Assembly: GCA_020629635.1 (NCBI GenBank)
Contig: JAHDCX010000003.1
Coordinates: forward strand, 81,480-145,479
Direction of reading: 5' to 3'
Source of the DNA: Acidimicrobiales bacterium
GTDB lineage: Bacteria; Actinomycetota; Acidimicrobiia; Acidimicrobiales; SHLQ01
DNA: 64,000 nucleotides
Both the position numbers and the translations under genes were made by a program. Below the pieces are notes generated by a model that saw nothing but the letters and a program-made list of their open reading frames with translations, was not told where the DNA came from and searched no databases. This document shows, piece by piece, positions 35,672 to 39,630 of this stretch. Numbering within the stretch: the stretch's first letter is position 1; each line of letters begins with the position of its first letter.

Positions 35672-35730
35672 GGGGCGAGAACCCCGACCGGACAGCCCGA
35701 CATTCCCCACCCTCCGGTAACGTGTGGACC

Positions 35731-36114
35731 ATGCCGAAGACCGTCGATCTCGACGCCCGAATCCGCTCTGGCGCCAAGGTTCGGGCAACCGCAGACCTTC
35801 CCGGGGTCCCGATCGGAACGACCGGCAAGGTGGCCATGTCCAATGGCATCACCTGGAAGCGGTATTGGGTTCGTTTCGAGAACGGCGAGCTCGTTGGGCA
35901 CGTCGATCACGACGACATCGTCATCGCCCGCCACTGGGATCTCTGGCATCGCCGCAAAGAAGCCGAAGCCGAGGCGGCAGCCAACGCCGAGGCCGGCGGG
36001 AGCGACGCCGGCGCCGGCGCAGCGTCCGGTGGCGGCGACACCCCGTTCGGTGTTCCGCAGTACTTGCTCGACCGGACGAAAGCAGCGCTCGAGCGCTTCG
36101 GCGTCGAACGCTGA
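35731..36114 (+). CDS. Conserved actinobacterial SH3-like small protein
   Basis: 127 aa. The N-terminal 70 residues (GAKVRATADLPGVPIGTTGK, KRYWVRFENGELVGHVDHDD) look like a small beta-barrel of SH3/KOW type. A low-complexity Ala/Gly linker follows, then a C-terminal helix with FGVPQYLLDRTKAAL. I recall similar proteins in other Acidimicrobiia, but no function is known. A GTG at 35722 would add three residues. It is 15 bp upstream of the helicase start and likely co-transcribed with it. Confidence 0.65.
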   Translation: MPKTVDLDARIRSGAKVRATADLPGVPIGTTGKVAMSNGITWKRYWVRFENGELVGHVDHDDIVIARHWDLWHRRKEAEAEAAANAEAGGSDAGAGAASGGGDTPFGVPQYLLDRTKAALERFGVER

Positions 36115-36129
36115 TCGACGGGTCGGGCC

Positions 36130-38736
36130 ATCTCCCTCCTCGACCACCTGCCGGCCGGTGCCGATGTCGCCGACGATGACCTCATCGAGGGGTTCATCGA
36201 CTGGGCGTCGGGCGTCGGCCTCGAGCTCTACCCCGCACAGGAAGAGGCGATCCTCGAACTCCTGAGCGGCGAACACGTGATCCTCGCGACCCCGACGGGG
36301 TCGGGGAAATCCCTCGTTGCGATGGCTGGCCACTTCGCGGCGCTCGCCCGGGGTGTGCGCAGCTACTACACGGCGCCGATCAAGGCGTTGGTATCGGAGA
36401 AGTTCTTCGCGCTCAGCCGTGAGTTCGGGTCCGAGCGTGTCGGCATGATCACCGGCGACGTCTCGGTGAATCCGGACGCACCGATCATCTGTTGTACCCA
36501 GGAGATCGTCGCCAACCTGGCCCTCCGGCGAGGCCGCAGCGCGGAGCTCGGGCTCGTCGTGGTCGACGAGTTCCACTACTACGCCGATCCTCAACGCGGC
36601 TGGGCATGGCAGGTGCCGCTCCTCGAACTTCCCGACACACAATTCTTGTTGATGTCGGCCACGCTCGGGCCAACCGCCCGATTCGAGGAGGACCTCGCGG
36701 CGAGGACGGGACGGACCGTCGCCGTCGTCGACGGCGCAGAACGACCCGTCCCGCTCGACTTCGCCTGGCTCGACACCGCGGTCCACGCATCGGTGGAGGA
36801 CCTGATCGACGCCGACCGCACTCCCGCCTACGTCGTCTACTTCACGCAGAAGGCCGCGCTCGAAGCTGCTCAGTCGTTCACGAGCCTCTCGATCTGCTCG
36901 AAGGCCGAGAAGGCCGAGATTCGCGACGTCGTCGGCAACTTCCGATTCGACACGCCGATCGGCAAGGACCTCAAGCGATTCTTGTCGCACGGGATCGGCG
37001 TCCACCATGCAGGACTACTCCCCAAGTATCGGCTCCTGATGGAGAAGCTCGCCCAACAGGGACTGCTCAAGGTGATCGTGGGCACCGACACGCTCGGCGT
37101 GGGCGTCAACGTGCCGATTCGCTCGGTGCTGCTCACGCAGCTGTTCAAGTACGACGGCCGCCAGGTCAGAATCCTGACCGTCCGCGAGTTTCAGCAGATC
37201 GCCGGTCGCGCCGGACGCAAGGGATTCGACGACGAGGGTTTCGTGCGGGTGCAGGCGCCGCCACATGTGGTCGAGAACCTGGCGGCCGAGCGAAAGGCCG
37301 CCGCTGACCCCAAGAAGAAGCGCAAGGCGCAGAAGAAAAAGCCGCCCGAGCGCGGATACGCCCACTGGACCGAGGACACCTTCCGCAAGCTCGTCGACGG
37401 CCGCCCCGAACCAATGGTGTCGAGTTTCTCCGTCTCGCACCAGATGCTGCTGAATCTTCTCGACCGTCCGCCGGTCGACGGCCAAGCGGGCGGCTGTGGA
37501 GCCGTACGCCATCTCCTCACCGACAACCACGAGACCCGCTCCGCTCAGCGAGCGCACATCCGACGAGCCATCTCGATGTACCGGTCCCTGCTCGACGCCG
37601 AGGTCATCGAGCACCTCGACGAGCCCGATGCGGACGGCCGCGAGGTTCGGGTCACCGTCGACCTCCAGGACGACTTCGCCCTGAACCAGCCGCTCAGCCT
37701 GTTCGCCGTCGAGATCATCGAGCGCCTCGATCGCGAGGCCTACGACGGACCTGGCGGAGCGCTCGAGCACGCCCTCGATGTCATGAGCATCGTGGAATCG
37801 ACACTTGAGAATCCGGGAGCGATCCTCGCCGCCCAACTCGACAAGGCAAAGACGGACCTGCTCGCGGAGATGAAGCGAGATGGGGTGGAGTACGAGGAGC
37901 GCATGGAGCGGCTCGAGTCCGTCGAGTACCCCAAACCGCTGCGCGACGAGCTCTATGCGGCCTTCGATGTCTTTCGGGGCCGGCACCCGTGGGTGGGCCA
38001 GGACAACGTGAAACCGAAGTCGGTTGCGAGAGAACTCCACGAACGGGCGATGACCTTCTCGGAGTACGTGCGCGAATACGGGATGAAGCGAAGCGAGGGC
38101 CTGGTCCTGCGATACCTCACCGATTGTTGGCGAGCGATGTCGCAGACCGTGCCCGAGTCAGAGAAGACCGACGAGGTGCTCGATATGATCGAGTGGCTCG
38201 GCGAAATGGTCCGACAGGTCGATTCGAGCCTCATCGACGAGTGGGAGCGCTTGACCAATCCCCCTGACGTCGATGAGACGTCGGGCCTCGCACCGGACAC
38301 GCCGTCGGCTCGAGACGTGACCACCAACGAGCGAGCGTTCATGGTCATGGTTCGCAACGAGTGCTTCCGGTTGGTTCAGCTGGTGGCCAGGCGCAACGCG
38401 GCCGAACTCGCTCGACGATCCGATCCCGACCATTGGGTCGAAGAGGAACGGGCGCCAGCGGTCCTCCGGTCCGCCGAGCAGGTGGAACGGATGTTGGACG
38501 GCTACTTCGACGAGCACGACGAGGTCCTCACCGGCCCCGACGCCCGCGGCAGTTCCTTCTTCCAACCCGGGACGGTCGATGTCGACGACGTGCACGGCGA
38601 GCACGTGGCTGTTCGTCAGGTTCTCCGGGATCCAGCGGGCCACGACGAATGGGGCGTCCTGGCGTGGGTCGACCTGGATCGATCGCGGGAGGCCGGCCAT
38701 GCCGTCGTCGTGTTCGACGAGCTGCGCCGGCTCTAG
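36130..38736 (+). CDS. Ski2-like DEAD/DEAH helicase with DUF3516 region; apparent ATC start
   Basis: 868 aa if begun at the ATC at 36130. Motifs: Q-motif-like ELYPAQEEAI, Walker A TPTGSGKS (54-61), DEFH (146-149), SAT (176-178) and motif VI QQIAGRAGRKG near 355. A DUF3516-type C-terminal half follows. Homologues as I recall them begin MSLLxxLP... and have the LYPAQEEAI region; here the in-frame sequence between the TGA at 36112 and the GTG at 36277 encodes ISLLDHLPAGAD ... LYPAQEEAI without any ATG, GTG or TTG. Starting at 36277 would delete the Q motif and leave the Walker A at the very N-terminus. Probable RNA helicase in RNA processing or decay. Confidence 0.85.
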   Translation: MSLLDHLPAGADVADDDLIEGFIDWASGVGLELYPAQEEAILELLSGEHVILATPTGSGKSLVAMAGHFAALARGVRSYYTAPIKALVSEKFFALSREFGSERVGMITGDVSVNPDAPIICCTQEIVANLALRRGRSAELGLVVVDEFHYYADPQRGWAWQVPLLELPDTQFLLMSATLGPTARFEEDLAARTGRTVAVVDGAERPVPLDFAWLDTAVHASVEDLIDADRTPAYVVYFTQKAALEAAQSFTSLSICSKAEKAEIRDVVGNFRFDTPIGKDLKRFLSHGIGVHHAGLLPKYRLLMEKLAQQGLLKVIVGTDTLGVGVNVPIRSVLLTQLFKYDGRQVRILTVREFQQIAGRAGRKGFDDEGFVRVQAPPHVVENLAAERKAAADPKKKRKAQKKKPPERGYAHWTEDTFRKLVDGRPEPMVSSFSVSHQMLLNLLDRPPVDGQAGGCGAVRHLLTDNHETRSAQRAHIRRAISMYRSLLDAEVIEHLDEPDADGREVRVTVDLQDDFALNQPLSLFAVEIIERLDREAYDGPGGALEHALDVMSIVESTLENPGAILAAQLDKAKTDLLAEMKRDGVEYEERMERLESVEYPKPLRDELYAAFDVFRGRHPWVGQDNVKPKSVARELHERAMTFSEYVREYGMKRSEGLVLRYLTDCWRAMSQTVPESEKTDEVLDMIEWLGEMVRQVDSSLIDEWERLTNPPDVDETSGLAPDTPSARDVTTNERAFMVMVRNECFRLVQLVARRNAAELARRSDPDHWVEEERAPAVLRSAEQVERMLDGYFDEHDEVLTGPDARGSSFFQPGTVDVDDVHGEHVAVRQVLRDPAGHDEWGVLAWVDLDRSREAGHAVVVFDELRRL

Positions 38737-38745
38737 GTTGGCGAC

Positions 38746-39630
38746 ATGGTCGTCCACCTGCTTCGCAATCCGGCGAGTGGAGCGGGCCGCCGTGGAGCGG
38801 AGGCGTCGACGCCGATCCTCGATGCACTTCGCACGGAGGCCGACGTCATCGATCTGACCGGATCGAGTGCCGACGCGTCGGCCGAGGCGCTGCGTCGTGC
38901 CGTCGGCGATGGACTCGAGCGGCTCGTGGTCGCCGGAGGGGACGGGCTCGTCAATATGGCGATCCAATCGCTTGCGGGACGCGACGTGGTCCTCGCACTC
39001 GCGCCGACGGGAACCGGCAACGACTTCGCCGCGGCGCTCGGGGTCGACGAGCCAACGGTCGATTTGCTCCTCGGTCCGGCTGGACCGAGCGATCTCCTTC
39101 GAGTCGACCGTCCCGATTCTGGGCAGAGTCAATGGGTTGCGTCGATCGCCATCGCAGGGTTTCCGGCAGACATCAACAGGCGCGCCAACTCGATGACCCT
39201 CCCGATCGGTTCGGCGATCTACACGATGGCCGCCGCGCTCGAACTCCCGCGTTTCCGGCGTCGACGACTCGACGTGACCGTCGACGACGAGCGCCTCGAG
39301 CTCGACTCCGCGATGCTGGCGGTGGGCAACACGCGATTCTTCGGCGGGGGGATGCTCGCTTGTCCCGACGCTCGCCACGACGATGGCTTCTGTCACCTCA
39401 CCTCGATCGAGGGCGTTGGGCGCGCCGGGATCCTTCGCCACCTGACCCAACGTTCCGGCGGGAGTGCGTCGAGGCCAGAAGTGACCCGTCGACAGGGTTC
39501 TCGGGTCACCATCTCGTCGGTGGACGAGCGGACCGAGGTGTGGGGCGACGGAGAGTATGTCGGCGACACACCGCTGCGCATCACTGCCGTTCCTGGCGTG
39601 CTTCAGGTCGCCGGGCTGATGGCCGAATAG
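38746..39630 (+). CDS. Diacylglycerol kinase-like lipid kinase
   Basis: 294 aa. The DAGK catalytic domain is marked by HLLRNPASGAG at the N-terminus, VVAGGDGLVN (GGDG at 64-67) and LALAPTGTGNDFAAALG (87-99). The second domain contains GNTRFFGGGMLACPDA and later WGDGEYVGDTPL, typical of DgkB/YegS-like kinases. It would phosphorylate diacylglycerol or a related lipid using ATP, on the inner face of the membrane. The start follows the helicase stop by nine bases, so co-transcription is likely. Lipid specificity is not predictable. Confidence 0.87.
   Translation: MVVHLLRNPASGAGRRGAEASTPILDALRTEADVIDLTGSSADASAEALRRAVGDGLERLVVAGGDGLVNMAIQSLAGRDVVLALAPTGTGNDFAAALGVDEPTVDLLLGPAGPSDLLRVDRPDSGQSQWVASIAIAGFPADINRRANSMTLPIGSAIYTMAAALELPRFRRRRLDVTVDDERLELDSAMLAVGNTRFFGGGMLACPDARHDDGFCHLTSIEGVGRAGILRHLTQRSGGSASRPEVTRRQGSRVTISSVDERTEVWGDGEYVGDTPLRITAVPGVLQVAGLMAE

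Follow-up and report, generated by a model that had tools for sequence, protein, structure and literature searches.

Where does translation begin in a gene whose reading frame offers no standard start codon ahead of its first conserved motif? The question is raised by a helicase gene in the window analysed here, a stretch of 64,000 nucleotides from an Acidimicrobiales bacterium. The helicase frame opens at 36115, immediately after a TGA at 36112-36114, and runs to the stop at 38734-38736. As an earlier note on this DNA had correctly stated, it contains no ATG, GTG or TTG between that TGA and the GTG at 36277; an ATC stands at 36130-36132. Based on comparison with relatives, translation of the helicase very probably starts at this ATC, and we give a probability of roughly 0.7 to the fuller reading that the start is reached by coupled termination-reinitiation behind a small gene lying directly upstream.

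Table 1. Features of the helicase locus, in positions of the window.
Feature	Position	Strand	Remark
TAACGT, -10-like TANNNT box	35718..35723	+	13 nt ahead of the small-gene ATG; putative leaderless promoter
Small upstream gene, 127 aa	35731..36114	+	start ATG 35731, stop TGA 36112-36114; conserved directly before the helicase in 11/11
Gap from upstream stop to ATC, 15 nt	36115..36129	+	in relatives 6-15 nt long, sequence not conserved; Shine-Dalgarno absent
ATC, putative helicase start codon	36130..36132	+	ATC in 11/11 genus genomes; 22 homologues outside the genus have ATG/GTG here
Helicase DUF3516 (PF12029), Ski2-like DExH	36130..38736	+	868 aa counted from ATC; PF12029 E=2.8e-177, PF00270 DEAD E=7.9e-20
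Q motif LYPAQEEAI	36226..36252	+	lies ahead of GTG 36277; aligned to Ski2 4a4z
GTG, first standard in-frame start codon	36277..36279	+	encodes Val50, ahead of Walker A
Walker A (motif I) ATPTGSGKS	36286..36312	+	read in the helicase frame

The protein belongs to the DUF3516 family, its C-terminal domain matching PF12029 with 590.9 bits against a gathering cut-off of 25, and it has a DEAD/DEAH core (PF00270, 71.7 bits) in which both the Q motif and Walker A are present. Counted over the frame from stop to stop, the Pfam DEAD match sets in at residue 40, which is residue 35 when counted from the ATC, and the nearest solved structures are Ski2/Mtr4 chains, with E values down to 2e-52. No papers on DUF3516 were found in the literature collection searched. 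A product begun at GTG 36277 would be without the first 49 residues, and only the ATC-started product has the Q motif. Among the 11 genus members, divergence at codon positions 1/2/3 was 0.153/0.109/0.509 in residues 1-49 and 0.162/0.114/0.484 in the remainder of the gene, with amino-acid identities of 76% and 80%, respectively. Because the codon-position pattern equals that of the rest of the gene, comparison indicates that the stretch ahead of GTG 36277 is real coding sequence. The proposal that 36130-36276 encodes a normal N-terminus was thereby borne out, and the Q motif within it aligns with that of Ski2.

It was found that ATC occupies exactly this helicase codon in all 11 genomes of the genus. 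Their helicases share 69-98% pairwise protein identity, with two pairs at 98%, so that nine lineages are represented. The N-terminus reads ISLLDHLP, ISLLDHRP or ITLVDRLH, and in codons 2-8 the third base differs among the members, which shows that the region is not merely too young for change; a single substitution would convert ATC to ATG, and it was seen in none of the nine lineages. Invariance of the codon as a stand-alone proof was rejected as weak, as 5 of the 16 invariant isoleucine columns of the helicase gene are likewise all ATC. For this reason the case for the ATC start rests on the absence of an alternative. In eight genomes there is no ATG, GTG or TTG at all from the in-frame stop to the Q motif, and thus strictly no standard start codon that could give the conserved protein. 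The other three (G009, G003 and G001) have unconserved alternatives only, namely in-frame standard codons that fall where the upstream gene is read in another frame, to which G003 adds a TTG at helicase codon 17. The distance from the in-frame stop to ATC is only 1-3 codons in G002, G008, G006, G005 and G004, and a single alanine codon separates the two in G005 and in G008/G006.

Outside the genus, 100 distinct homologous loci covered the N-terminus. Every one has a standard start codon in frame ahead of the Q motif, and in 22 an ATG or GTG stands at precisely the residue of the ATC, for example in VSLLDHAP (L092), VSLIDELP (L080) and MSLIDQLP (L104). The alignment of orthologous starts, which the earlier note had suggested, gives in this way a near-cognate codon conserved within the genus at the position of a homologous ATG or GTG, and supports its choice of ATC as the best reading. 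Since the out-of-genus starts are standard throughout and 22 fall on the same residue, we infer that ATC has taken the place of an ordinary start codon; among the genomes compared it is confined to one genus. As a separate observation, the helicase orthologues at L031 and in the matches from G052, G220, G289, G383, G213 and G164, all of the same order, show a single stop in frame within the matched region, which may reflect a pseudogene, the boundary of a short form or an error.

The earlier note was right about the stop at 36112, which closes the frame ahead of the helicase, and had overlooked that this stop ends a conserved small gene with a likely leaderless promoter and a likely translational coupling to the helicase. 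The small gene, for which no Pfam or NCBIfam match was found, stands directly before the helicase in this genus only; in other families of the order its homologues lie elsewhere in the genome or are separated from the helicase by some 0.6 kb (G179) to 2.7 kb (G034). The small protein family, to which the homologues L141-L159 belong, was found in 39 of the 59 relatives searched, with a conserved N-terminal part, KVRATxDLPGVPxGTxGKV..WxRYWVRFxNG, and, in genus members, a conserved C-terminal QYLLDRTKAALE. A TANNNT box at -12 or -13 from the small-gene ATG is kept in 11/11 genus members while the remaining upstream region is unconserved. In Actinobacteria, leaderless genes carry such a box roughly 12 bp ahead of the start codon (PMC3160421), and because the box of the small gene agrees with theirs in position and form, the mRNA is probably leaderless and would begin at the small-gene ATG.

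In the 11 genomes the gap between the small-gene stop and ATC measures 15, 8, 8, 9, 8, 11, 11, 10, 8, 6 and 10 nt, a short distance that is conserved throughout as expected of a coupled pair, and it places the two genes in all three relative frames. No Shine-Dalgarno was found before ATC in any of the 11 genus junctions; the duplex energies of -2.4 to -6.4 kcal/mol were no better than those of random coding 20-mers (median -3.2, 5th percentile -8.5 kcal/mol). In the alignment, judged by eye, G000 and G009 have a G+C-rich repeat close to where the small gene ends; sequence change disrupts it in G010, G007, G003 and G004.

In the mechanism that we propose, ribosomes terminating at TGA 36112 would remain on the mRNA, which would itself start at the small-gene ATG, and would shift a few bases to the ATC, where the ordinary initiator tRNA with its CAU anticodon would restart translation without a Shine-Dalgarno. 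The weak ATC codon would hold helicase output low and linked to the upstream gene. Reinitiation without a Shine-Dalgarno has been described in E. coli (PMC2268962); as a point against the proposal, the E. coli data (PMC2268962) would lead one to expect little efficiency from such reinitiation at a near-cognate codon. One initiator-type tRNA was found in the genome by a motif search that required an exact GGGCT...AACCC arm and was not exhaustive, and it has the anticodon CAU; an altered initiator tRNA with a GAU anticodon was rejected on the result of this same non-exhaustive search.

Ribosomes might also need no help from the small gene and bind directly at the ATC, by de novo initiation without a Shine-Dalgarno or on a leaderless transcript that starts internally. 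Many genes of Actinobacteria are leaderless or without a Shine-Dalgarno (PMC3160421) and the junction sequence is unconserved, so that no dedicated coupling element is visible, which both speak for this possibility. It is nevertheless the less probable course, since the adjacency of the small gene with a gap of 6-15 nt is kept in every genus member and is unique to the genus, and a TANNNT is not visible just before ATC in the junction sequences. Recoding or a start at another codon appears improbable. The small gene does share the helicase frame in this genome, though only by accident, and readthrough of the TGA would yield a fusion; the open frames of G009, G003 and G001 are moreover longer. 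However, the frame relation among relatives is 0, 1 or 2, the small-gene stop is TGA, TAG or TAA, and an extra in-frame stop stands directly ahead of the ATC region in G005 and in G008/G006. As the gap differs in length and frame between relatives, fusion by readthrough or programmed frameshift was excluded as a shared mechanism. No other near-cognate codon is conserved in the genus, and the candidates CTG at codon 7 and ACG at 36118 were rejected on this ground.

Initiation at GTG 36277, with the upstream stretch outside the protein, would be the choice of gene finders restricted to ATG, GTG and TTG, as this is the first standard codon. We regard it as highly improbable: the product would lack 49 residues that show protein-level conservation, the Q motif among them, the out-of-genus homologues begin upstream, and the codon is not GTG in G005, G004, G009 and G001. 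Still less credence is given to a sequencing or assembly error or to a decaying gene, even though the genus genomes are drafts with many contigs and the listed genus records are labelled MAG. The earlier note had kept open that an ATG was misread as ATC, and this is refuted by the recurrence of the same codon in 11 separate genomes; the long intact frames without internal stops and the strong third-position bias argue against decay. The preferred reading accordingly stays with a start at ATC 36130, reached by coupled reinitiation.

In E. coli, infC and pcnB have AUU starts, and infC is under autocontrol by IF3. The helicase resembles these genes in its near-cognate AUH start and its predicted IF3 sensitivity, and differs from them in that it is not IF3, that no autogenous loop is involved and that no Shine-Dalgarno precedes the ATC. 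The earlier note's view that ATC initiation belongs mainly to infC-like genes leaves cases out: in Listeria monocytogenes the non-canonical starts of infC (ATT) and rnhC (ATC) are fixed and experimentally confirmed (PMC13068326). The likeness to Listeria lies in an AUH start fixed across a taxon, and for rnhC in ATC itself; the Listeria starts were mapped by experiment, whereas the ATC of the helicase is deduced by comparing genomes, and it belongs to a different phylum and to a gene for 868 aa that follows a small gene. For the coupling, the closest parallels are termination-reinitiation of the M13 geneV/geneVII type and the coupled recJ of E. coli, which has no Shine-Dalgarno (PMC2268962). 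These share with the helicase a downstream gene without a Shine-Dalgarno close behind an upstream stop. Reinitiation at non-AUG codons is possible there with a matching mutant initiator tRNA (PMC2268962), whereas the non-AUG codon here is natural and presumably read by the wild-type initiator tRNA, and the coupling is proposed. Fixed non-canonical starts are thus already known, and ATC starts are rare but known; what is added here is a large helicase, the missing Shine-Dalgarno and the apparent coupling.

Gene finders that consider only ATG, GTG and TTG would shorten such a helicase gene or put its start in the wrong place. A near-cognate start that is fixed in a genus, in the gene of a large ATPase and without a Shine-Dalgarno, provides material for the question of how far coupling can replace a proper start codon, and the same case bears on whether weak start codons persist for regulation. 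As the junction is specific to the genus, its distribution suggests that the helicase moved tightly behind the small gene, after which a strong start either was less needed because of coupling or had been removed by the rearrangement, the weak start then being kept, for regulation or by drift.

Additionally, we considered IF3. When IF3 is in excess in E. coli, non-canonical starts, leaderless mRNAs and reinitiation without a Shine-Dalgarno are all inhibited (PMC2268962; the same paper cites the feedback at the AUU of infC). IF3-sensitive expression of the helicase, as had been suggested earlier, is on these grounds a plausible prediction only, to which the class of its start codon and the missing Shine-Dalgarno point. 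The genus tolerates AUH initiation elsewhere, judging by its own infC, which starts with ATA in 9/9 genomes where infC was found (L160-L168); the ATA (GTC ATA GCT GA..) lies three codons past an in-frame TGA. A more speculative and rather doubtful extension would be an operon in which every initiation is disfavoured by IF3, that is, a leaderless ATG followed by an ATC without a Shine-Dalgarno, in a genus with infC at ATA, and so a regulon defined by start-codon class. If this were true, infC, the small protein and the helicase would all be raised when IF3 falls, as might happen under stress or in slow growth.

At the infC loci a conserved GAAAGG(A) stretch was seen 20+ nt upstream, too distant to serve the ATA. 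It lies nearer to a short ORF, GTG-NNC-AGT-CAT-AGC-TGA, which overlaps the ATA and ends just past it, and also nearer to an in-frame ATT-GCG-CAG-TGA. Read by eye, the arrangement resembles a mini-cistron from which ribosomes would reinitiate on the IF3 gene itself. Downstream of the helicase, a gene at 38746-39630 begins 9 nt past the helicase stop; it is putatively assigned by eye to a diacylglycerol-kinase-like family, and it may be the third gene of the same operon.
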